DNA of 43,624 nt, taken from IMG/VR virus record IMGVR_UViG_3300025687_000089, positions 1 to 43,624 of that record; one strand, written 5' to 3'. Source of the stretch: a virus. The position numbers were made by a program, and so were the translations under genes. Below, one piece after another: positions 2,946 through 21,534 of this stretch (within the stretch, counting starts at the first letter, position 1; every line of letters starts with the position of its first letter). Under the pieces are notes generated by a model. It was not told the origin of the DNA. It ran no database searches and saw nothing but the letters and a program-made list of their open reading frames with translations.

Positions 2946-3047
2946 CTAGGGACTGACAGACCAGCCCAACAGCACCATAGCGCAAAGGGCCAAGTAGAAA
3001 ACCGCGTCGATTGCTACGCTGACGGCTTGGCGTGCGGAACGCTTCAT
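2946..3047 (-). CDS. 33-aa single-pass membrane microprotein
   Basis: Begins MKRSARQAVSVAIDAV and has one hydrophobic helix (VFYLALCAMVLLGW), with a basic N-terminus that predicts the N-end in the cytoplasm. GGAGG lies seven bases before the ATG, and the start overlaps the upstream TGA as ATGA. Many phages encode such early membrane peptides, some of which disturb the host envelope; nothing here identifies the target. Confidence 0.6.
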   Translation of the reverse strand: MKRSARQAVSVAIDAVFYLALCAMVLLGWSVSP

Positions 3048-3235
3048 GCTTGATCCTCCCAGTGGTCCTCGCAGCATTCCTCGAAGGCCACTTCTTCGTC
3101 GCCACTTGCCAGTGCATCGGCAACCGCCGAATCCTGAGCGTAGCGCATTTTCCACGTGCAGTTTCGGCAGGCTACTACCGTGTCTAGCGTTCCATCGTCA
3201 ATCAAGACGGCTTCGAGTGTTTCGCATTGTGTCAT
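3044..3235 (-). CDS. 63-aa Cys-rich protein, first gene of leftward cluster I
   Basis: Begins MTQCETLEAVLIDDG, with CRNC at about residue 23 and a C-terminal ECCEDHWED that could complete a zinc site (C-x2-C...CC...H). Strongly acidic in its second half. It is the first gene read leftward from the control region 3236-3662, so it should be among the first expressed. No strong Shine-Dalgarno site is seen before ATG 3235 (TAGATCAA). Function unknown. Confidence 0.6.
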   Translation of the reverse strand: MTQCETLEAVLIDDGTLDTVVACRNCTWKMRYAQDSAVADALASGDEEVAFEECCEDHWEDQA

Positions 3236-3402
3236 TTGATCTATTCTAGGGCAGTGGCTCAGGGGGAATCCCTTCGCCGCGATGCCTTACCTTAATCTAT
3301 ATCGGCACCCAAGTCACGCACTTTCACCCCAAATCCACGGTATTTCGCCAAGTTTCCAACCCGCGCATTTGCGCCACCCGTCCAAGGCCTCGCACCTAGG
3401 GC

Positions 3403-3538
3403 CGCTGATATTGAGACGCAATCTCATCTAGCGCCGCTGCGCCCGTTTCAAACACCCACTCGAATCAAACGTTCGTTTCAATCAGTGCTGCGCTCCGAAT
3501 GCGACATCCTAGTCGCTGATATTGAGACTCAATCTCAA
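3403..3538. promoter_or_regulatory. Two copies of a 24-bp operator-like element (TGAGA-N5-TCTCA)
   Basis: Bases 3403-3426 and 3514-3537 match at 23 of 24 positions. Each begins CGCTGATATTGAGAC and contains the dyad TGAGA-N5-TCTCA (3412-3426; extended to TTGAGA-N5-TCTCAA at 3522-3538). They are 111 bp apart, about 10.5 helical turns, which would place them on nearly the same face of the DNA and would suit looping. A dimeric regulator is expected to bind here; which protein is unknown. Confidence 0.55.
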
Positions 3539-3624
3539 CAAGCGAGGGGTGGGGGCTCCTCCCCCAGGCCCGGACCCCACGCCCAAGGGCACTCGCACCC
3601 TCAGCCCTCCGCAAAAAATAAAAG

Positions 3625-3652
3625 TTGCCTCCCAGCGCCCCTGTGCTAGGAT
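3625..3652 (+). promoter_or_regulatory. Candidate sigma70-type promoter for the late operon
   Basis: TTGCCT (3625-3630) and TAGGAT (3647-3652) are separated by 16 bp, and an A-rich stretch lies just upstream. Transcription would start within a few bases of the terminase ATG at 3663, giving a very short leader or a leaderless message. No good ribosome-binding site is visible before this ATG, which fits but does not prove that reading. Confidence 0.35.
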
Positions 3653-3662
3653 TTACCTATAC

Positions 3663-5354
3663 ATGGGCCGCATCACCAATGCCGACATCAGCCGCTCGCA
3701 GGAACTCCAGGACCGGATCATCCAGCTCTGGGAGTGCCCTGTGGAGTTCGGCTCGCTGTGGCACCGGGGGGTCCTCCAGACCGACGGCACGCGGCGCAAA
3801 ACCTACGGCCACGTCCACAAGGAGATCGCCGCCCACATGACGGCCCACAAGCGGTCGTCGCTGGTGGTCACGCGCAACCACGCGAAGTCGACGGAGGGCA
3901 TCGACATCATCATGCACCAGAAGTGGCAACACCTGGACAAACGCATCATGCACATCTCGGCCGCCACGACCCTCAGCAAGCAACTCATCAACGAGCTGCG
4001 GACGATCACCCAGGGCGAGGTCGAGCTTCTCCCAGGGCTCATGGTGCCGTTCAGTGAGTGCTTTCCGGAGTTAGTAGCAGTCAGACCTCCAAGCGGGGCG
4101 CCGCAGGGCTCCTTCAACGTCGCAGGCCGAGCGGGCACTGGCCGCGAGCCCTGCTTCATGCCGTCGTCGATTGGCTCGAACAGGGCCGGCATGCACCCGA
4201 CGGACATCATCGCCGACGACCCGTCGAACGAACGGAACTCGACGACCCCCGTCCAACGGCAGAAGGTCATCGACGCGATGCACCAACTCGAGCCGATCCT
4301 GCGCGACCCGTCCGATGGCCACATCTGGCACATCGGGACGCCGTGGGCCTTCAAGGACGTCTCTTCAGAGCTACCCCGGATGGGCTACAAGCAATACCGC
4401 TTCGGCTGCTGGGATGGCGTCAACCCCGATACAGGTCTCCGCGACGGCAAGGGGCCGGGCCGCACAGAGCTGGGCGCCCCCAACGACGGCGACTGGCCGC
4501 TGTGCCCTGCCTACATGAACGCCGACGAGCTTGCCGAGACGTTCGTTAGCCTGCGCGACGCCGGCAACTACGAGTTCTGGGCCCAGCAGTACCTCGTCAA
4601 ACCGGTGGCGGCCGCCGACGCGCTATTCGACGACGCCCTCATCAGCGCCACCACGCACAGGGTCGCCGACCACCAGGCACTACCCCCAGGCAAGAACATC
4701 CTCCTCTGGGACCCAACGAGCCGCGCCGACGCCCAAGTCGGCGACTGGAACGGCATCGTCCTCGTCAGGGCCACCACGGCCGAGCAGGTCGTCGAACTCT
4801 GCAAGCGCAATCCGGCCTACGCGATCCCAGGGCTTGCGGAAATGGCGCCGTCGACCAACATCTTCTTCGTGGCCGAGGCCCTAGAGCTGCGGGGACCCCC
4901 CGCCGACTGCATGCCGGTTGTGCGCAAGATCCATGAAAAGTGGGGCATCGACCAGCTGTGGGTCGAGGACACGGGGGCGGCCTCGTGGGTCCAGAACTGG
5001 GTCGACGACCACCACTGGGCGCGGGGCATCGCGACCATCCCGATCAAGCTAGGGTCGCGAGGCGCGTCCAAGGATCGCCGCCTCCAGGGCACCCAGTTCG
5101 CGCTGAAGGAGGGCCGACTACGGTTCATCAGCAGCGCCCCCGGCTACGACATCCTCACCCAGCGCCTCACAGAGTTCCCAAAATCGGAGAGCGACGACCT
5201 CCCCGACGCGCTGGCCCTCCTAACATGGCGCGGCCAACGAAAGGGGATTTTACCCAAAATAACTATTGAACCCGACCCCAACTCGTACTACAATGCGGCC
5301 GCCGACCCGACTTCGTTAGCCTTCCGCCAACCCCCGCCGCCCTCTAGCTGGTAG
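3663..5354 (+). CDS. terL: Terminase large subunit (packaging ATPase and nuclease)
   Basis: Motor that translocates genomic DNA through the portal and cuts it. From ATG 3663 the product is 563 residues, a normal length. The ATPase half shows a Walker A-like segment VVTRNHAKST (around residues 64-73) and Walker B IIADDP (around 182). The C-terminal nuclease half shows acidic residues in LLWDPTS (about 350), VEDTG (about 434) and DDLPDAL (about 510), the layout of large terminases with an RNase H-like nuclease. An in-frame TTG at 3522 would add 47 residues but lies inside the operator repeat and is rejected. Followed after two bases by the portal gene. The small subunit is not adjacent; 32112-32522 is a weak candidate. 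Confidence 0.93.
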   Translation: MGRITNADISRSQELQDRIIQLWECPVEFGSLWHRGVLQTDGTRRKTYGHVHKEIAAHMTAHKRSSLVVTRNHAKSTEGIDIIMHQKWQHLDKRIMHISAATTLSKQLINELRTITQGEVELLPGLMVPFSECFPELVAVRPPSGAPQGSFNVAGRAGTGREPCFMPSSIGSNRAGMHPTDIIADDPSNERNSTTPVQRQKVIDAMHQLEPILRDPSDGHIWHIGTPWAFKDVSSELPRMGYKQYRFGCWDGVNPDTGLRDGKGPGRTELGAPNDGDWPLCPAYMNADELAETFVSLRDAGNYEFWAQQYLVKPVAAADALFDDALISATTHRVADHQALPPGKNILLWDPTSRADAQVGDWNGIVLVRATTAEQVVELCKRNPAYAIPGLAEMAPSTNIFFVAEALELRGPPADCMPVVRKIHEKWGIDQLWVEDTGAASWVQNWVDDHHWARGIATIPIKLGSRGASKDRRLQGTQFALKEGRLRFISSAPGYDILTQRLTEFPKSESDDLPDALALLTWRGQRKGILPKITIEPDPNSYYNAAADPTSLAFRQPPPPSSW

Positions 5355-10119: not shown

Positions 10120-10935
10120 ATGGTTGAAGTCCTCACACTCCGCGCCCGCCTGGCCAAGCGCCTGGGTCTCTCGGTCATCACTGGCCCTGAGCAGGAGCGT
10201 CTGGACGAAGCAATCTACTCTGGCTTGGCCCGGATCCATGAAGATGGTGTTCCGGGCTTCGCTTACTCAGAGCTGACCGCCGAGACCTTCGGGACCTCGG
10301 CGGTTACTATCACCGGCCACACGGCCAACACGTCGACGCTCGCGCTGACGCCCCCGACCGGGCTCAACGTCGGCGACGTCATCAAGATTGGCAGCTACTA
10401 CCGGACCATCTACGACTACAGTGCATCCGGCATCGACGTCGGCTCTGCGATCAAGGATTCGTTAGCGGGATCGACTGGCACGATCTACCACCGGACAGTG
10501 CGGCTCCCCAACTCAGGGTCCGTCACGCAGGTAATCAACCTCGGCAACAAGACGCACCTCGCGCACACGCCCGACGGCCTGACCAACTACGGCCTCGAGC
10601 CGACCGGTCGCACCCAGGGCTACGAGCAACGCTACGCCCGCAACGGGACGCCATACCTCCAACTGTGGCCCGTGCCCGACGCAGCCGTCAGGCTCGCAAT
10701 CCGGCAGAACTTCTCGCTGGACAACATCACCCAGAGCACCGACATCCCCGGCACCGAGGCCTTCTACGACGCGATCCTAGAGCGGGCCGTGCAGGTTTGG
10801 CGCTCGTGGCAGACTGGTGGCTTCAGCGCGGGCGAGGCAGCCGCTTCCCGCATTGGCGTGGCGGACTCGAATACGGCGGCCAAGCAAGGCGGCAAGAGCA
10901 CTCAGCCGCAATCGCGGAGTAACTTCCGTGGCTGA
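10120..10935 (+). CDS. Head-to-tail adaptor (T7 gp11-like tail tubular protein A)
   Basis: 271 residues beginning MVEVLTLRARLAKRLGLSV. The N-terminal helices are followed by a beta insert (TAETFGTSAVTITGHTANTSTLAL) and then by LQLWPVPDAAVRLAIRQNFSL, which matches the style of gp11-like adaptors ('l.l.P.Pda...l...y'). It would form a ring below the portal, linking it to the nozzle. The order capsid, adaptor, nozzle agrees. The end overlaps the next gene by eight bases (GTGGCTGA). Confidence 0.75.
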   Translation: MVEVLTLRARLAKRLGLSVITGPEQERLDEAIYSGLARIHEDGVPGFAYSELTAETFGTSAVTITGHTANTSTLALTPPTGLNVGDVIKIGSYYRTIYDYSASGIDVGSAIKDSLAGSTGTIYHRTVRLPNSGSVTQVINLGNKTHLAHTPDGLTNYGLEPTGRTQGYEQRYARNGTPYLQLWPVPDAAVRLAIRQNFSLDNITQSTDIPGTEAFYDAILERAVQVWRSWQTGGFSAGEAAASRIGVADSNTAAKQGGKSTQPQSRSNFRG

Positions 10936-11484: not shown

Positions 11485-14400
11485 ATGAAGGCCCGCTTCG
11501 ACAACCTTCCGATGGACCGCAAGGGTTCGGCAATGGGCCGTTCGCCCTTGTCGGATCCGCCTGCCGTCTATGAGCGGCGCGAGGTTGACCCGAATAAGGA
11601 GATCACGACGCGGCGCCTCGGCACCGAGCGACAGGCGCGGTACGCTCAGGCTCTAGGGTTAGTTGCAGAGCCAGCCGGTTCGCAGTGGGCCATCGACGCC
11701 GAGTTGGACCTCACCGGCTCGTGGTCGATGGGCTTCAGTGCCAACGTCGGCGACATCACGGAAAGTGGTGGTGAGTGGACGCTGCTGTTTGCAGGGTCGA
11801 CCGCCGATGCCGACACGGACAACTCTGTTCGGTGCTACCTCAAGTACGACAGCGGTACCTACAAGGTCTATCTCGACGCCATCGACAACGCGTCGACGGT
11901 TGAGGGCGTCACACCCATCGCAGTTACGGCGGGCGCCAACGTCGACATCCTCATCACCAAGAGCGGCACGACCCTGACCCTGAACGTGAGCGAGGGCGAC
12001 GCAACCCAGGGCGTGACGCTCGCCGGCACCTACACGGCACTGTCAGCGGCGCAGATCGAACTACTGGGCACGCACAAGATCACCACCAGAGCCAAGGGCA
12101 CTGCACCGGTGATGGACAACCTTCACCTGTGGGCCTCCGTCGTCACCACGGCCGAGTACCAGCAGCGCACCCCCAGCGTCTCCTCGTTCTACAACATCCA
12201 ACCGTCGGACATCGGCGGCTACTGCTTCTCGCCCGCAACGGGCGGGGCAACCAGGGGCAAGACCTACGCGGTCCCGGCGCCCCCGACCCTAGATGATTCA
12301 AAGCTGCACTTTACTGGTTTTGGGGGCGCTGTTGTGGTGCCTTTCCGCCAGATTTTTGAGCGGTACTTCCAGACCCAGACGGAAAATGTCGGGTCGCAGA
12401 AGTTCTCCTTCAAAGTGGAGGGCCAACGCGCCTTCAGGTCGGCCTCAACGACGCTACTCGACTTCGGGTCCGATGTCGAAGGGCTCGCCTACTTGGCAAT
12501 CGACGCAACCGGAAAGGCCGTATTCACATACAATGGCGTCAGTGCCACCTCGGCTGCCGCAATCACCGAGGACACCGACTTCTCCATCGTCTGTGGAGTC
12601 GACGGCACGAATGTCTACCTCATCCTAGACGGCGCCGCTGCCGTCACAACGACGATGCCGGCGTTCGCGCCCTACCTCGACTGGCAGCGCATCCCGGACC
12701 TCTACATCGGCAACGACGAGGACCCGTCTGCGGGCAAGGGCTTCCACGGCTACCTCACGAAGGTCGACTTCTTCGACTACGCGGTTTACGCCGACACCTC
12801 GACGTCCCTGAACCCCGCGTTCAGCCTCGACGTCACGGCCGACTACCTGCGCGACAGCAGCCGCAACCGGATCGCGCTCGCGGCCGTCACCCACGGCACC
12901 ACTGAGGGCCACCCCGCCTACGCACCAGGGCCGCTCACGGACCAGGACCACGTTGGCGTCGAGTCGGGCGTTGTCATGGGGCCGGCCGCCCTCGGCTACA
13001 CAGGGATCTACAAGGAGCCAGTCGGCGCCGACCTCAGCAGTATCCGCGTCGGCGACCGGGCGTTCGTCCACAGCGGCGATTCGGTCCATGTGTTCAACTC
13101 AGAGCTTTCCAAGGTTCGGCCGCTTGGCCTCCCTGAACCCGAGGCCGACGTCAGCGTCCAGAGCCTCTCGACGGGCGCCCTGGATGGTGTATACGACTAC
13201 GGCTACCGCTGGGTCAGCCAAGACGGCACCCGTGGCCCCATCAAGCGCCTGAAGCCCGTCAAGGCAACCGGCGCCGCATCAGTGCTCATCGGCGCGGGCG
13301 ACGCGGCCGGCACAGAGGAGCGCCGCGAGCTAGGCGAGTCCTATGGCCTTGCCGAGTCTGGTGCAGCCGAGCACTTCACCCTAACCGACAGCACCGACGG
13401 CATCGCGGCCACCGACGGCGACGGCATCTCAGTCGAAACCTACCTCCGGTTCCCAGACTTCGACGACCTTGAGGAGTCCATCTTCGACCGGGGTTCGACG
13501 GCCGACTTCTCCGACGAGCCGACGCTCTGCTTAGAGCCGGACAACCCAATCGACCTGAACCCCAATGGCGACTGGACGATGCAGCTCGCGTTCAGGTACA
13601 AGGCATCCGGCGAAGGTACCTACAACAACCAGGGCCTCCTCGCAATCGGCCACGAAGACCCGGGGCCAACCACCCGGTCGTTCATGGTCTACCTGGACGC
13701 CGACAGCACCTACGGCGGCGAGTCAGGCGGCCCGCCCCGCCTCGTTGTTGCCCGCAGCCTTGGCCTCAAGGACAGCCGCTACCGCTACCTCATCTTCAAC
13801 AGTGCCGGCGACGAAGGCACGGACGACGGGTTCTGGGACGCCGACGACGACTACAACCTCGTTGCAGTGCGGGACGGCGACGACCTCCGAATCCACATCC
13901 ACAACTACACGGATAGCACCTGGAAGCATTTCACAGGCGGCGCCCTAGTCGGATTCTTTGCCGGCTACGACTTCCCACAGAAGAAGATCGACTTCAGAGC
14001 CACCAACGTCGCGTTCAGGAAGACTGGCTCTAGCGGCAACCACTACGAGGGCATCGCCGACCTCCCGACGGCGGACTCCGGCACGAACTACACCGACGCA
14101 GCAGGCGCGACCGGCACCCACGGTTACCGCGACTACGGCACGGGCGTCGGCAGCCGCAACGCCAACCGCCTCGGCTGGATGGCGAACGATAGCTACTTCT
14201 ACCACGCCCGCGCGTGGTCCCGCGCATGGCCCCAGGCCACCATCGTCTATGAGTCGGGCAAGCGGTTTGCCGCTGCTCAGGGCGGCGCGATGGATGACCT
14301 CATCAGGTCCGATGTTGGCTTCTTCACCGAGGACCCGTCAGTGAACCCCAACAAGTTCTACGACCGCGTTTCAGGGCAATACTGGCGGACCTACAAGGGC

Positions 14401-16143
14401 GACACTGCCGATAGTGGTGTCAAGAACCCGACTAAGGGCAACATGACCCAGATCAAGGGTTCGCCCACCGAGTTCACCGGAGTGCTCATCACTGACGAGG
14501 CGTCCGTTGCGGAGACCGAGGCGCAGTACCACATCTACGCGTCGAGCCTCGGCGACGGCTCGATTGTGGTTACCACTGGCAAGGCATCTTATGTCCTGCC
14601 GAACCGCCAGTGGGACGGCAGCGCATCGGCCTCCTATGTCAAACCCCTAGCCGACGCGGGCATCGACCCGCAGCAGTTTAACTGGTTCACGACCAGCATC
14701 ATCCTAGATGATGTCTCTAGCGACTACGACCTAACCATCCGCGACCTGGACATCAACGGCAACAGGATCTTCGACGCGCCGCTGGGGGCCAACGACAGCG
14801 CCATCACTGTCAGCACCGACTCGTTGGTAGTGTACCTTGGCGGCATGGCGGCCACCAACAGCGGCGACACACACATCGGTGAGTTCCGCCTGTGGTCGAA
14901 GAACCGCTACGACGACGCGACGGAGGATTACGACTTCCTAACAGGGCGCGTCAAGGGCTCTGAGTGGGGCGACCTCTACTTCTACGCCACCTTTGAGCCG
15001 GCTGACCTTGTAACAGCAACGACCTACAACCATCGCGGCTCGCTGTCGACGGACCTATTGACTCTGGTTAATAGTTCCTCCATCGTCGACACCCGCGAGT
15101 CGAACAGTTCGGGAGGCGCGACCGACCCGGCCCCGGCCATCGGCATCCCGGCGCCGCCCTACGACTACATCACAGCAGCAGAGCTATTCAGGACCGCCCG
15201 CTACCCTATCGGCGACCCTGACGATGATGGCGAGGTGCAGAAGGCCCTGAAGGCCGTGCGCGGCCTCCCCCTCTACAAGCTTGCCCGGATCCCAGCCGGC
15301 GACACATCTTATGTTGATGTCGCGCCCGACGAAGCCCTCGGCGCCGAATCGCCCGAGGCCGGCACCGGTCAGATCCCTGACGCCCCCAACGGCATTGGCA
15401 TCTGGCAGAACCAGCTCCTCACTTGGCGCGGCAACGAGATACACTTCGCCGAGCCATCGGTCTTCGGCTGGGAGTCGTTCCCGTCGTGGTTGACCTACCC
15501 AGTGCCCGTTCCCAAGAACGGCTCTGACATATTGGCAGTCGCGGAGGTCGCCGACAGTCTAATCGTCTGCGGCGAATCTTGGACGGTATTGCTCGTTGGT
15601 TCGCCGTCGAGCCCCCGCGTCATGGACCTCGGCTCAGGGGCGGGCGTCCAAGCTGTCGACTGCCTCGTCACTCAGGGCGGCCTCGCGTTTGGCCTCGGTA
15701 AGCAAAAGCTCTGGGCCTACAAAGATGGGCAGCTCGACGAGTCGTTCGGCACCCCAGTCCACGAGTTGCTCCCGACCAACGGCCGACTCGCCATCAGCGG
15801 CAACCTGTCTAGTCTCTACGTCATCGACCAGGACTCCGATGTCACGCTCCGCTATCACTTCCCAACCGGCTCCTGGTCCATCGAGGAGCGGGATGCGGTC
15901 GATGTTGGCGACACCAGTGCCGGCACCGCTTGGGTCCACTCGTCAGGGTCCTACTCCCTAGAGTCGTCCAGCGTCTACGCCGACGACGTAACCACCTCCA
16001 CCGCCACGAACTCTGTGGGTAGCATCGCGACTACTTCCACGATCTTCATGGCCGCCGATCCTAATGCACCCGTTGGCTCCCGTGTGCTAGTAGTCGATAA
16101 CACCGGCCTCGGCATCCTTACCCGCGTCGTGAGCTTCGCTTAA
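11485..16143 (+). CDS. Giant tail nozzle protein (T7 gp12-like) with lectin-like insertions
   Basis: 1552 residues, about twice the usual T7 gp12 length (near 800). The N-terminus (LPMDRKGSAMGRSPLSDPP), the segment VGDRAFVHSGDSVHVFNSEL...DGVYDYGYRWVSQDGTRGP (about 510-585), and the C-terminal third (LYKLARIPAGDTSYVDV near 1260; WRGNEIHFAEPSVFGWESFP near 1315; then repeated beta blades to the end) look like gp12-type beta-propeller nozzle sequence. Between them lie four beta-sandwich-like regions, about 69-217, 272-432, 696-852 and 1039-1162. They share a lectin/laminin-G style with phrases such as WTMQLAFRYKASG and IGEFRLWSKNRY. These probably bind glycans on the outside of the tail. Domain limits are estimates from sequence texture. 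Confidence 0.72.
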   Translation: MKARFDNLPMDRKGSAMGRSPLSDPPAVYERREVDPNKEITTRRLGTERQARYAQALGLVAEPAGSQWAIDAELDLTGSWSMGFSANVGDITESGGEWTLLFAGSTADADTDNSVRCYLKYDSGTYKVYLDAIDNASTVEGVTPIAVTAGANVDILITKSGTTLTLNVSEGDATQGVTLAGTYTALSAAQIELLGTHKITTRAKGTAPVMDNLHLWASVVTTAEYQQRTPSVSSFYNIQPSDIGGYCFSPATGGATRGKTYAVPAPPTLDDSKLHFTGFGGAVVVPFRQIFERYFQTQTENVGSQKFSFKVEGQRAFRSASTTLLDFGSDVEGLAYLAIDATGKAVFTYNGVSATSAAAITEDTDFSIVCGVDGTNVYLILDGAAAVTTTMPAFAPYLDWQRIPDLYIGNDEDPSAGKGFHGYLTKVDFFDYAVYADTSTSLNPAFSLDVTADYLRDSSRNRIALAAVTHGTTEGHPAYAPGPLTDQDHVGVESGVVMGPAALGYTGIYKEPVGADLSSIRVGDRAFVHSGDSVHVFNSELSKVRPLGLPEPEADVSVQSLSTGALDGVYDYGYRWVSQDGTRGPIKRLKPVKATGAASVLIGAGDAAGTEERRELGESYGLAESGAAEHFTLTDSTDGIAATDGDGISVETYLRFPDFDDLEESIFDRGSTADFSDEPTLCLEPDNPIDLNPNGDWTMQLAFRYKASGEGTYNNQGLLAIGHEDPGPTTRSFMVYLDADSTYGGESGGPPRLVVARSLGLKDSRYRYLIFNSAGDEGTDDGFWDADDDYNLVAVRDGDDLRIHIHNYTDSTWKHFTGGALVGFFAGYDFPQKKIDFRATNVAFRKTGSSGNHYEGIADLPTADSGTNYTDAAGATGTHGYRDYGTGVGSRNANRLGWMANDSYFYHARAWSRAWPQATIVYESGKRFAAAQGGAMDDLIRSDVGFFTEDPSVNPNKFYDRVSGQYWRTYKGDTADSGVKNPTKGNMTQIKGSPTEFTGVLITDEASVAETEAQYHIYASSLGDGSIVVTTGKASYVLPNRQWDGSASASYVKPLADAGIDPQQFNWFTTSIILDDVSSDYDLTIRDLDINGNRIFDAPLGANDSAITVSTDSLVVYLGGMAATNSGDTHIGEFRLWSKNRYDDATEDYDFLTGRVKGSEWGDLYFYATFEPADLVTATTYNHRGSLSTDLLTLVNSSSIVDTRESNSSGGATDPAPAIGIPAPPYDYITAAELFRTARYPIGDPDDDGEVQKALKAVRGLPLYKLARIPAGDTSYVDVAPDEALGAESPEAGTGQIPDAPNGIGIWQNQLLTWRGNEIHFAEPSVFGWESFPSWLTYPVPVPKNGSDILAVAEVADSLIVCGESWTVLLVGSPSSPRVMDLGSGAGVQAVDCLVTQGGLAFGLGKQKLWAYKDGQLDESFGTPVHELLPTNGRLAISGNLSSLYVIDQDSDVTLRYHFPTGSWSIEERDAVDVGDTSAGTAWVHSSGSYSLESSSVYADDVTTSTATNSVGSIATTSTIFMAADPNAPVGSRVLVVDNTGLGILTRVVSFA

Positions 16144-16145
16144 AC

Positions 16146-17795
16146 ATGGTCTACAAACTAGACGGAACCCAAGGTAACTCCGGCACTGCGCCCGCAGACG
16201 CCGACCTCGTACCATTCTTCGACGCTAGTGCATCGGGCACTGACCCGACGGACAAGATCGCCGACATGAATATGGCCCAGCTCGCGGCCTATGTCGCGAC
16301 CAAGATTGGTGTAGGTGGCTCTAACAACATGGACGCCACCATCGACCCGACTGCGAGCGACGACACGGGCTCTGGGTACGAGGTTGGCTCTATGTGGTAC
16401 AACCAGACCTCGAACGCCCTTTTCGTAGCCGAGGATGTCACGGCCGCCGCCGCTGTCTGGACCAACGTTAGTGCCACCGTCACCGAGAAGGCCCTCGAGG
16501 ACCTCTGGCAGGCAGCCGCCACCCCGATCCTCGCAACGGGCGACAAGTTCCCGTTCGCCGATGTCAGTGGTACCGACACCATCGGCACTGCAACCGCGCC
16601 CGACATCTGTAGCACGGGCGGCGCACTCCTGAAGGACGGCACGACCGACCTCACAGGCGACCTCGTAATCAACGAGCGGGCCGACCACGCCGACACGCCG
16701 ACCGCCGGCAAGGGCCAAGTCTGGGTTCGCTCTGACACGCCCAACGTCCTCGTGTTCACCGACGACGCGGGCACCGACACAGTGCTCGGCTCAGGTTCGG
16801 TAACGGAGAAGGCCATTGAGGACATCATTGAGGGCCTGACCCCAGCAGCGCCCGCCGCCACCGACGAGATTGTGTGGCGCGATGTCTCGGGAACGGACGC
16901 ACTAGGTTGCTCGACCCCGCAGCAAATCGTCGAGACCGCGCACACGGCGATGGGGATCACGCCCCAGAACCGGATCACGACGACCACCGACCCCGGCGCG
17001 AACGACGACGGCGCCGGAACCAACGGCACGGTCCACATCGTCAACGACCTCTGGACCAACACGACGACCGACACCTCCTGGATCTGCCAGGACATCACGA
17101 CGACGGCCGCAGTCTGGGCGCAGATCGACCTCACCGGCGGCGGTGATGCGTGGGGCGATGTTGTCGACGCGGACATCATCCCTGACGCCGACGGCACCCG
17201 CGACCTTGGCGCCGACGCGACCCGGTTTGCACTAGCCTATGCCGACGATGTCCATGTCACAGCGGGCATCCTCGTCACAGAGGCCGCCGACCACTCGAAT
17301 ACTCCGGCCGCAACGAAGGGCGAGTTCTGGGTCCGCAACGACGCGCCCAACGAGCCGATGTTCACCGATGACGCGGGCACTGATTGGCGGCTGCACAAGC
17401 CCGATGTCGTGCTCAGTGGTTTCGTCGACCTCACCAACACCACCTCGACCAATACGGTTGCTCTGGTGATGACAGCGCCGGTTGCAGGGACCATCACCGA
17501 CATCAGGTTCCACTCGCCAACGAAGACCATTCCCGCTGACGGCTCGAACTACTGGGAAATCATGCCCCAGAACTTCACGAACTCCAGTGTGGACTTGCTC
17601 GCCGCTGCGTTTTCTACAGCGAGTACGACCATCACCTTCAAGGAGAGCTTCGACATGGGCGCCCTCCACGGAACTGACGCAAACCTGGTTGTGGCTAAGG
17701 GCGACACCTTCCAAATCGTGTTCACGGCAACTGGAACGCCGACCACCTTCGGTTCCAAGCCAATCGAGCTGCAACTGACCATCCAGCCGACCTAA
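16146..17795 (+). CDS. Tail fibre / stalk protein with internal duplication
   Basis: 549 residues. The N-terminus (YKLDGTQGNSGTAPADADLVPF) resembles virion-anchoring ends of phage fibres. The body contains the fibre-stalk pattern ADH..TP...KG..WVR.D.PN...FTDDAGTD twice (about residues 178-212 and 379-415). Two further paired segments (about 62-105 with 278-323, and 108-146 with 217-255) show that a block has been duplicated. The C-terminal 120 residues form a beta-rich domain (SGFVDLTNTTSTNTVALVMT). It likely links the nozzle to the hydrolase-like proteins encoded next. Stop and next start overlap (TAATG). Confidence 0.78.
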   Translation: MVYKLDGTQGNSGTAPADADLVPFFDASASGTDPTDKIADMNMAQLAAYVATKIGVGGSNNMDATIDPTASDDTGSGYEVGSMWYNQTSNALFVAEDVTAAAAVWTNVSATVTEKALEDLWQAAATPILATGDKFPFADVSGTDTIGTATAPDICSTGGALLKDGTTDLTGDLVINERADHADTPTAGKGQVWVRSDTPNVLVFTDDAGTDTVLGSGSVTEKAIEDIIEGLTPAAPAATDEIVWRDVSGTDALGCSTPQQIVETAHTAMGITPQNRITTTTDPGANDDGAGTNGTVHIVNDLWTNTTTDTSWICQDITTTAAVWAQIDLTGGGDAWGDVVDADIIPDADGTRDLGADATRFALAYADDVHVTAGILVTEAADHSNTPAATKGEFWVRNDAPNEPMFTDDAGTDWRLHKPDVVLSGFVDLTNTTSTNTVALVMTAPVAGTITDIRFHSPTKTIPADGSNYWEIMPQNFTNSSVDLLAAAFSTASTTITFKESFDMGALHGTDANLVVAKGDTFQIVFTATGTPTTFGSKPIELQLTIQPT

Positions 17796-19822
17796 TGACG
17801 AGCACCTTCTCGATTCCGAATCCGCGCACCAACGGCAAGGGCTACTTGCCGGGGATGAACACGCTGTTCAATCTTGCGTATGGCCGGGAGGTGCCGTTCA
17901 ACAACCTGATGAAACAGGCGAACGATGAGTGGGTGCGCAACTCCAGCGACACCTTCGACGGGACGCTCGACAGCGACGGCTACATCACGGACCCCGGCAC
18001 TGCGGTCGCGCATAACCAAGTGGTGGTCATCAGTGAATCACGCGCAGGGATGCTGCCGACAGGCAACTATGTCCTGACCTGGAGCGGAACGGGCGACTGC
18101 TCACTCGTTGCGACGGGCACGATGAGCATCGGGTCGCCCACGACCAGCACGAACCGTAAGGTCTACAACATCACTGACTGGGGCGACGACGATTTGTTGT
18201 ACTTCAGGGTCCCCATCGCCGCCACCGATGTCACGGATGTTGTGATCTGCCACGAGGACTACGAGGGAACCTGTGGACCCGGTGAGGTAAACGAGTTCTA
18301 CCAACCGTTCCTGGATGTCTACTCTGACTTTCCTGGTGGCATCCGTTTCATGAACTGGCAGGCCATGAACCGACAAAGCGGCTGGGACTCTTGGGCAGAC
18401 CGTAAGCCCGACAGTTATCGCACATACACTCACGGCGCGTTTAATACTGGAGCGGGCCGTCACGCGCAGCCCGGTGTGCCTCTCTCGGCGTGTGTCCGAA
18501 TGCAGAACTTGTTAGGTGTCCCAGCGTGGTACTGCATCCCCGCCGAGTACGACGATATCTCCGTGTCTTTATGGGGACAGTACCTCGTTGATAATGTGAA
18601 TCCAGAGCTAAAGATCGCCATCGAGTACGGCAACGAGACCTGGAATAGCGGGTTTTCAGCCAACGCTTACGCTCAAGCGCAGGGTCTTCTTGAGGTCGCC
18701 AACTCGCGCTACATCACCCTGGCGAGCATGGCCGACTCCAACTTCGACGGGGACTACTTCCAGTCAAACAACGGAGAGGTCGCAAGCGGGTCGTTCGACA
18801 CCACGAACGCCGCCTTCAATGTCTTCAAGCGCGAGAGCGGGGGTACGACCTATGTGCTGTACCACAACCAGACCTCTGGAAACTGGGAGGTCGCAACCTC
18901 CACTAGTGACCCGGACACCTGGACCAACTCGCAGTCGGTGACGCTCGGTACGCCGGAGACTGTGTGCGCTGGCGACACGGCATGGACGGAGAACGGCACG
19001 ACGGGGCCGGACGAGGGCGATGCCAATGTCACGGCGACCTCGCGCTTCTCCGACCAGAATGAGTCCTACCCCTTCTGGCCGTGGGCGGCCTACCGCTCGA
19101 CGCAATGCAAGCGCATGATTGAGCCGCTGTTCGTTGCGGATGGAACCGATGACCGTGTGACATTCGTGCTGGGGATGCAGGTCGGCAACAACGCGTCGAA
19201 GAACGCACTCGATGCTCATGTCGAGGTGAACTTCGGCGTGGACGCATACGAGAAGCCGGAGGATCACCACGATTCTGCGACCATCGCGTTCTACTGGGGA
19301 AACTCGCTTCTGGCGGAGCCGCAGTACTCCAACAACGGGCTGGCTGACGATGCCCCTAGCAGTCTCCGAGACGGTGCTACGAAGAACACCGTCAACATGA
19401 GCAAGGAGGAGGTCTACCAGTTCTTCGAATCGCTCGACGCTTACGAGTCCACGCTCGCCGGATCGACTCGCTGGGCGGATTGGGAGGCTCGCATCGTCAC
19501 CACGGGCGGAATGGAGATGCTCGGCTACGAAGGTCAGCACCATGTCGTGTGTGTCGGCGGTGTCGCTGGCGAAACTCCAGCGCAGACAATCGTCGGCTAC
19601 TACGAAGAGGAGCGTTGGGGGGATGTCACCCTCACGATGCTCCGTAGTGCGCTCGACAACGGCTTCGGAACCCTGATGCACTTCGTTGCCATTGAGAAGA
19701 CCGATCCCGATGGGTATTGGGGACTCGCCCCAACCTACGCAGATTGGGACGACATCGAAACCTACCAGCGTCTCAGGGCGGTCAAGCACTTTGCCGGCCT
19801 CACGAATAACAGGGGCATCTAA
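17795..19822 (+). CDS. Tail-associated glycoside hydrolase (TIM-barrel, clan A-like)
   Basis: 675 residues. EYGNETWNSGF places Glu281 in the N-E-x-W context typical of the acid/base of clan A glycosidases, and MLGYEGQHH places Glu579 where the nucleophile of such barrels is expected. Between them (about residues 305-400) lies a segment rich in Ser/Thr/Asp (FKRESGGTTYVLYHNQTSGNWEV) that looks like a beta-domain inserted in the barrel. The N-terminal 120 residues may be a carbohydrate-binding or attachment domain. It probably degrades a host capsule or exopolysaccharide. The tetranucleotide CTAG, frequent elsewhere, is nearly absent here, suggesting a recent acquisition. Confidence 0.75.
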   Translation: MTSTFSIPNPRTNGKGYLPGMNTLFNLAYGREVPFNNLMKQANDEWVRNSSDTFDGTLDSDGYITDPGTAVAHNQVVVISESRAGMLPTGNYVLTWSGTGDCSLVATGTMSIGSPTTSTNRKVYNITDWGDDDLLYFRVPIAATDVTDVVICHEDYEGTCGPGEVNEFYQPFLDVYSDFPGGIRFMNWQAMNRQSGWDSWADRKPDSYRTYTHGAFNTGAGRHAQPGVPLSACVRMQNLLGVPAWYCIPAEYDDISVSLWGQYLVDNVNPELKIAIEYGNETWNSGFSANAYAQAQGLLEVANSRYITLASMADSNFDGDYFQSNNGEVASGSFDTTNAAFNVFKRESGGTTYVLYHNQTSGNWEVATSTSDPDTWTNSQSVTLGTPETVCAGDTAWTENGTTGPDEGDANVTATSRFSDQNESYPFWPWAAYRSTQCKRMIEPLFVADGTDDRVTFVLGMQVGNNASKNALDAHVEVNFGVDAYEKPEDHHDSATIAFYWGNSLLAEPQYSNNGLADDAPSSLRDGATKNTVNMSKEEVYQFFESLDAYESTLAGSTRWADWEARIVTTGGMEMLGYEGQHHVVCVGGVAGETPAQTIVGYYEEERWGDVTLTMLRSALDNGFGTLMHFVAIEKTDPDGYWGLAPTYADWDDIETYQRLRAVKHFAGLTNNRGI

Positions 19823-21534
19823 TGGTCACCACCGCACTGATCGTCGGGCCAAACAACGCGGCCATCGCCGGCCCGAATGGGGCTGTGCTCGCGGGACCGA
19901 ACTACGCGGCGCCGTTCACCGACTACACTCAGGGCCTTGGGATGGTTGTGGGCGACAACGCTGGTGCCGACTGGGGCATCCAGGAGGCCGCCTGGATCAA
20001 GGCCAACGCGTCGAATGTCACGTTTACGCGCAACATCAAGAATGGTCAACGCGGGTACTTCACCAATGCGGCGGCGATCCCCAGAGCCACCCAATACTGC
20101 AACTTCACGACGGCCACCGAGGATGAGCTAGACCAGTGGGTCGCTGACGGCTACACCCAGGCCCAGATCGACGCTCTGAAGATGACTGCCCCCGACGGTA
20201 GCTACTACACCGAGATCAACGGCAACGAGACCCTGATGGATTTCACCAACACCGATTGGTTGGACCTACGGCTCTCGTCTATCCCAGAGTACAACTCGAC
20301 CAACAAGCTCGGCAACCTCTCCAACCTCGACGCTATCTCGATGGACCTGTGCCCGCTGTGGCCGGTCCAGAACCTCGTCGGCGCCGACAACCCTTTCGCA
20401 ACCCCGGCTCTGTGGCGATCCAACATGCTCGCCTGCATCGCCTATGTTCGCGACCGGATCAGCAACGACATCCACTTATTCGTCAATGGTCTGCGCCAGT
20501 TCTACCACGAGATCGGCGACTTCAAGAATAACCCGTCAGACTACGAGGACTACGACGGCCGCGACGCCATCGAGCCAGGCAACTACGGCAGCGCGAGCGG
20601 TATCGAGGTCGGCCTGAAGTACGACAACGGCGACCGGTGGAAGATGCTCTATTCGCTCAGGGCCCTCTACCGCGCCTCGGCCGAGGGGCTCTGTGTGGCG
20701 CCCGCCATGAAGGTCAACACGGGGTCGCCAACCGTCTCCGAGTCCGAGAACCAACGGCGCATCAACAACCTCGCCGTCTATGCCCTGATCCATGAGGCCG
20801 ACTACACGCGGTTCACTCAGCGGTCCAACGTGTTCTCACAATACCCAGGGCGCGTCCTCCCTGAGATGGACATTGTTCTCGGCACCCCCGACAGCGCCGT
20901 CGACTCGATGTTCACGGGGTACGCTACCCCGACGGCCCAGTTGTTCACCCGCAGCTTCGGCAGCGGCGCCTACACGGTGCTCTACAACTGGTCCAACGCC
21001 ACCAAGGCGATCCCTGAAACCTATCAGTCAGCCTACCAGCAGATCCGCCCGACCCGCGAGACCGTCCTCGAAGCCAATGGCACCACCGAATCGGCCATCG
21101 AGTACGCCCCGGTCGGCGAAACCATCGCGCCCTGGCAGGGCATGATCCTCACGCAGCAGGGCGCGACCCTGACCGTGACCACCGCGTCCCTAGCACAACT
21201 CGACGGCGAAGTCAAGCTATTCTTTGGGGTCGGCGAAACGGGCATGATGATCGACACCGGCGAGTTCATTGCTGGCCCTGGCAAGGTCGAGGCGACCACG
21301 GACCTCGACATCCAGGACGGCGACGACTGGGAAGTGTCCGTTCAGGGCAAGGACCAGCCGGGCATCCGCGACAACAGACAAGGCATGGAGTTTGTGCCGC
21401 TGGCGTCGGGCGCACAAATGTCAGGAACAGGTGGACGCGGGCGCTGGGTTCGTGTTATACTCAGGGCGCTAGCACCTCTCTTACACCGCATCGGCGCCTC
21501 CGAAGTAAACATCCGACAAGAGGATAAGGAGTGA
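19822..21534 (+). CDS. Second tail hydrolase-like / receptor-binding protein
   Basis: 570 residues. The first 35 residues contain three short repeats around GPNNAAIAGPNGAVLAGPNY, a common attachment style. The central part has alternating strands and helices (FTNTDWLDLRLSSIPEY; LDAISMDLCPLWPV; LHEADYTRF-like region) consistent with a TIM-barrel glycosidase-like domain with possible catalytic Asp/Glu near 'EINGNE' and 'ISMDLC'. The C-terminal 150 residues are beta-rich. No family named with confidence. It follows the first hydrolase with a one-base overlap (TAATG), so the two are probably made together. Confidence 0.6.
   Translation: MVTTALIVGPNNAAIAGPNGAVLAGPNYAAPFTDYTQGLGMVVGDNAGADWGIQEAAWIKANASNVTFTRNIKNGQRGYFTNAAAIPRATQYCNFTTATEDELDQWVADGYTQAQIDALKMTAPDGSYYTEINGNETLMDFTNTDWLDLRLSSIPEYNSTNKLGNLSNLDAISMDLCPLWPVQNLVGADNPFATPALWRSNMLACIAYVRDRISNDIHLFVNGLRQFYHEIGDFKNNPSDYEDYDGRDAIEPGNYGSASGIEVGLKYDNGDRWKMLYSLRALYRASAEGLCVAPAMKVNTGSPTVSESENQRRINNLAVYALIHEADYTRFTQRSNVFSQYPGRVLPEMDIVLGTPDSAVDSMFTGYATPTAQLFTRSFGSGAYTVLYNWSNATKAIPETYQSAYQQIRPTRETVLEANGTTESAIEYAPVGETIAPWQGMILTQQGATLTVTTASLAQLDGEVKLFFGVGETGMMIDTGEFIAGPGKVEATTDLDIQDGDDWEVSVQGKDQPGIRDNRQGMEFVPLASGAQMSGTGGRGRWVRVILRALAPLLHRIGASEVNIRQEDKE

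Follow-up and report, generated by a model that had tools for sequence, protein, structure and literature searches.

A podophage-type tail nozzle carrying laminin-G-like insertions and apparently encoded in two pieces

The window analysed here, that is the whole 43,624-base stretch of an IMG/VR virus record, contains at positions 11485–16143 an intact open reading frame of 1552 amino acids, with an ATG start and no internal stop in the list of its open reading frames. A preliminary description had read it as a tail nozzle gene of about twice the normal size, with gp12-like ends and middle, split by four lectin-like regions of beta-sandwich type. A nozzle is regarded as a conduit made of a single chain, with fibres attached at dock sites, and the locus raises the question of whether such an enlarged protein belongs among them, what its additional residues are and where its C-terminal end is encoded. 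The explanation that we propose is a podovirus nozzle with lectin-like inserts, whose gene would have been split by a cassette and whose end would be supplied in trans; we give this overall explanation a probability of roughly two in three. The features of the locus are the following.

10120–10935, + strand: adaptor-like gene upstream of the nozzle (Pfam SU10_adaptor, 1.3e-4, below the Pfam cut-off).
11485–16143, + strand: nozzle gene, 1552 aa, without the usual C-terminal segment (open reading frame; profile match, E 2e-7; structure matches of L010).
11485–11670, + strand: first 62 residues (identity 55–74%), with a presumed role taken from the SU10/T7 nozzle layout (PMC9509320).
11671–12180, + strand: laminin-G-like domain 1, residues ~63–232 (Pfam in orthologues, AF2, tandem LG matches).
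12280–12894, + strand: laminin-G-like domain 2, residues ~266–470 (Pfam in L006, perlecan LG3 match).
12922–13284, + strand: nozzle core part 1, residues 480–600, up to the YDYGYRWVSQDGTRGP motif (collinear profile match, E 0.002–0.03).
13525–14034, + strand: domain 3, residues ~681–850, probably laminin-G-like (AF2, weak similarity to domain 1).
14455–14964, + strand: domain 4, residues ~991–1160, fold not established (pLDDT about 32 or lower).
15118–15924, + strand: nozzle core part 2, propeller blades, residues 1212–1480 (profile match, AF2 and PDB matches, all via L010).
15925–16140, + strand: tail of the shortened nozzle, with the stop where the L010 nozzle continues (comparison with L010).
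16146–17795, + strand: fibre-like gene inside the split, 549 aa (phrog_33012, 1e-9, function unknown).
17795–19822, + strand: 675-aa gene inside the split, taken for a hydrolase in the preliminary description (no family match).
19822–21534, + strand: 570-aa gene, an unclassified N-terminal domain fused to a nozzle C-terminal module (match to L010).
21166–21531, + strand: the nozzle C-terminal module, residues 449–570 of the 570-aa protein (match to L010; position before gene 21531).

The window and its relatives are all metagenomic contigs. Full-length nozzle relatives were found in L004 and L006 (65% identity), partial copies of 82–99% identity in L002, L003 and L005, and a more distant relative of 1671 aa in L010 (51% identity), the closest outgroup, of which L009 is a near copy. 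Searches of IMG/VR with nozzle, capsid and adaptor profiles gave relatives in just one small clade of few contigs, and the genome contigs searched with the same three kinds of profile gave none. Among cultured phages, the 11 kb of DNA around the nozzle gene had no match and a tblastn search with the window nozzle protein returned nothing useful. The large terminase (3522–5354) likewise had no cultured-phage match by tblastn at E 1e-5 although it matches PHROG 38 at 5e-41, which places the phage in a lineage without cultured members.

The whole protein had no family match in Pfam, PHROGs, NCBIfam or a PDB sequence search. A weak tblastn match to orf17 of Sinorhizobium phage PBC5 led to PHROG 511, whose annotation is 'internal virion protein' and which is strongly related to the solved chain 8JOV_A (E 1e-179 to PBC5 orf17). 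The 8JOV entry, entitled 'Portal-tail complex of phage GP4', holds six chains of this family; PHROG 511, with a member solved in that complex, is probably the tail nozzle family. Its members in PBC5, PH1 and Parlo (L028:8248-10095, L030:2212-4155 and L035:310-2049) are annotated 'internal virion protein' or 'unknown'. A profile of 10 proteins of the PHROG 511 type matched the window clade at E 1.6e-5, and a 90-member profile, made of those 10 proteins and 80 IMG/VR relatives found through PBC5 orf17, matched it with a probability of 93% and an E of 2e-7 to 5e-7, against 0.33–0.55 in the reversed-sequence control. The main match aligns residues 1214–1365 of L010 with positions 194–322 of the family; the second and weaker one (E 0.002–0.03) is collinear with it and covers family positions 82–161. 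The GP4 nozzle family (PHROG 511, PDB 8JOV) thus shares significant profile similarity with the window clade over the propeller and a weaker collinear match over core part 1, whereas its own members have about 530–615 aa, lack laminin-G blocks and keep their C-terminal segment within the nozzle chain.

For the predicted structure, the last 467 residues of the unsplit orthologue L010 (1205–1671) were folded with AF2 as a stand-in for the window nozzle, since alignments that mixed the remote family with the whole core placed this family wrongly around the insert; in the alignment used for L010, the C-terminal ~60 residues of the remote family are probably misaligned. The model has a mean pLDDT of 61 and shows propeller blades, with values mostly of 57–94 over residues 1205–1414, the only part of the propeller folded with confidence out of the seven blades and platform domain expected of a nozzle; the models cover two separate segments, window residues 1–1200 and L010 1205–1671. 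All of the 19 best PDB matches given by Foldseek are podophage tail chains (T7, P22, SU10, Pa223, Kp9 and others), and a viral structure library agrees, with P22 gp10-like and tail tube B proteins among its named matches. In a second-look alignment the top row was the portal-tail chain of cyanophage A4 (Z 13.4, 2.6 A over 127 residues). As a Z of about 12 was also reached by propellers of unrelated proteins, the propeller fold is firm, while it is the Foldseek ranking, the sequence and the gene order that identify the protein as a nozzle. The order of a capsid-like gene, an adaptor-like gene, a small gene and the nozzle is conserved in four genomes and fits that of nozzle loci. These data confirm that the 1552-aa product belongs with the podophage tail nozzles, as had been proposed with its propeller fold, and the protein would be expected to form a hexameric ring. 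T7 gp12 and P22 gp10, both matched by the predicted propeller of L010, differ from the window nozzle in being single polypeptides with no laminin-G inserts reported.

The size claimed earlier is borne out and even exceeded, the 80 remote relatives having a median of 533 aa. Compared with insertion-free nozzles, the window protein has ~1,000 extra residues distributed in two blocks. Block 1 (residues ~63–470) adds ~410 residues after the first 62 and consists of a pair of laminin-G/ConA-like domains. Block 2 (~600–1211) places ~610 residues inside the nozzle core, between the two core matches; it is flanked by YDYGYRWVSQDGTRGP and YITAAELFRT, whose counterparts stand some tens of residues apart in insertion-free relatives. 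At the same site L040, a member of the remote nozzle family (3001–5031), has a different insert of ~140 aa with no match in Pfam, which indicates that this site accepts inserts. The long architecture is common to all full-length nozzle relatives, and the insertion-free homologues that the preliminary description had suggested seeking were not found among the close relatives and exist in the remote family only, nearly all of the 80 relatives returned from it being of this type. Core part 1 is the most conserved stretch of the protein, with 79–80% identity to L004 and L006.

The four lectin-like regions described earlier fared unequally. The laminin-G/ConA-like nature of domains 1 and 2 is confirmed and well supported. 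For domain 1, Pfam Laminin_G_3 matches the L006 segment at 1.3e-5 and Laminin_G_2 the L004 one at 3.8e-4, both slightly below the Pfam cut-off, and the AF2 model has a pLDDT mostly of 55–79 over residues 81–190. For domain 2, Laminin_G_3 matches residues 298–441 of the L006 orthologue at 6.6e-7, above the gathering cut-off, and the structure aligns with perlecan LG3 (Z 14.2, 3.2 A over 164 residues). In the window model (residues 1–1200, mean pLDDT 38, poor outside these two domains), domains 1 and 2 have a pLDDT of roughly 40–85, and their best structure matches include laminin-G domains of laminin, neurexin, Gas6 and perlecan. Domain 3 is probably laminin-G-like, with strands at a pLDDT of about 36–63, a weak similarity to domain 1 (E 0.004) and neurexin structure alignments that extend over it. 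Domain 4, with no match in Pfam or in the PDB sequence search, was supported by no search run.

The idea of a gene split by lectin-like domains has likewise to be modified: lectin-fold domains do lie inside the nozzle core, but they are inserted in frame, and the true split is one of the gene at its C-terminal end, which the preliminary description had not noticed. Their nesting, considered as a remarkable architecture at first, is indeed an insertion into the nozzle core but of a kind already known with other folds (PMC9509320, PMC10172136). In the SU10 nozzle gp17, four Ig-like domains are inserted in the propeller (PMC9509320), and in the crAss001 muzzle gp44 the IG1/IG2 and crass domains are (PMC10172136). 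The window nozzle resembles gp17 in its extra propeller domains and in an upstream gene weakly matching the SU10 adaptor, and gp44 in a T7-nozzle-like propeller much enlarged by nested insertions, a large part of it at the tail tip. In contrast to the window, with its laminin-G-like inserts and its split, the inserts are Ig-like in SU10 and Ig-like and crass folds in crAss001, each within one intact gene. No laminin-G or ConA domain in a nozzle, and no precedent for a nozzle enlarged by laminin-G-type inserts, was found in the literature searched, such an absence being weak evidence.

In the explanation proposed here, the nozzle core has received, in frame, two blocks of beta-sandwich domains, of which at least two domains are laminin-G/ConA-like; these blocks would probably stand out from the tail tube as arms that contact the cell surface or act as spacers, or else lengthen the tube. 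If they bind carbohydrates, the presence of lectin-fold domains inside the nozzle would place surface recognition in the wall of the DNA channel itself. A purely structural role without glycan binding, such as a tube extension comparable with that of the Ig-like SU10 domains, is nevertheless possible, and we keep it as a serious if less favoured reading: the propeller-inserted SU10 domains extend the tail on infection (PMC9509320), and domains 1 and 2 evolve at about the rate of the propeller. Against it, the fold is that of many lectins, and domain 3 is both the most variable region (42% identity to L006 with many indels, for 80% in the neighbouring core) and apparently mosaic between lineages, which is what a domain touching the host surface would be expected to show. 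The L006 copy of this domain has a higher identity to that of L010 (53%) than to that of the window (42%). As far as can be judged by sequence, the mosaic pattern suggests a domain-level recombination at an exposed site.

The comparison with L010 establishes where the end of the nozzle is found. The L010 nozzle extends ~120 residues past the stop of the window gene, and its 121-aa end module has its counterpart at the end of the 570-aa protein (39% identity over 121 aa, E 2e-22). The description of gp12-like ends and middle consequently holds for the nozzle core and fails for the C-terminus, whose last ~120 residues, at 21166–21531, belong to another gene. To have this segment within the nozzle chain is the usual state, which was not taken here as a defining trait of nozzles. 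Two genes intervene in the window between the nozzle and the module-bearing gene. The split is common to three of the four genomes (window, L004 and L006) with a differing insert content, L010 being unsplit: in L010 the nozzle runs straight into the module, in L004 just a ~410-residue domain fused to the module comes between them, and in the window and L006 the fibre-like gene, the 675-aa gene and the fused domain do. The module lies directly upstream of gene 21531 in all four, in an otherwise collinear gene order (terL, portal, capsid, adaptor, nozzle, module, gene 21531), and the genes at the locus are coupled, the stop codon of one overlapping the start codon of the next or lying close to it. 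Since the C-terminal segment is on the same chain in 10 out of 10 aligned phage nozzles, and since alignments of the L010 model reach the T7 and P22 C-termini, the unsplit state is probably ancestral.

These data are in agreement with a cassette (fibre-like gene, 675-aa gene and ~448-residue domain) that would have become inserted close to the 3' end of the nozzle gene in the window lineage. In SU10 a single chain forms the nozzle platform with its N- and C-terminal parts (PMC9509320). By analogy, the window ring would bind the adaptor through its platform, the last strands of which would now come from the 570-aa protein; by giving these missing strands in trans, this protein would join the tail, and each nozzle subunit could carry one copy of it. 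We lean, by a little, towards this two-piece nozzle with lectin-like domains, its platform being completed by a second tail protein that is thereby anchored. If true, a nozzle that has lost its end to another tail protein would be an example of a naturally split protein and would give phages an easy way of adding new enzymes or fibres to their tails, and the four related genomes offer a direct comparison of the split and unsplit states.

The module could instead be an independent docking domain, part of the L010-type nozzle just through fusion; the window nozzle would then be complete and the 570-aa protein would attach elsewhere. This we regard as unlikely, even if several data are compatible with it: (i) by sequence alone, the module profile had no significant match among known nozzle C-termini (best E 0.14) and does not tie it to their platforms; (ii) the module, whose AF2 confidence is about 35–60, is fused in just one of the four genomes; and (iii) a small extra segment around the break (L010 ~1520–1570) is absent from the insertion-free family. 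In contrast, a comparable C-terminal segment is on the same chain in the 10 aligned nozzles, the alignments of the L010 model to P22, SU10, Carin 1 and T7 chains reach or come near the C-termini of both model and chain, and in each of the four genomes the module is still followed by the same gene.

A secreted propeller and lectin protein, sialidase-like or other, is highly improbable despite the presence among the matches of trans-sialidases, proteins with both a propeller and a lectin domain: these come from the model or segment of the lectin-like domains, the top matches of the propeller are podophage tail chains, and sequence profile and gene order favour a nozzle. An assembly or frame error is hardly credible even with metagenomic contigs throughout, because the split recurs, with an insert content that varies, in three contigs that come from different samples, and the independent contig L005 repeats the window's order of nozzle stop, fibre and 675-aa gene.

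With regard to the inserted genes, neither the 570-aa nor the 675-aa protein has a family or cultured-phage match, and the N-terminal part of the former (19822–21165) has no PDB sequence match; this part and the 675-aa protein (17795–19819) look enzyme-like by eye. Homologues of the fibre-like and 675-aa genes lie upstream of terL in the L010 contig (L017 1626–5122), whereas they lie inside the split locus in the window (16146–19822) and in L006, and the two genes seem to have moved as a unit.
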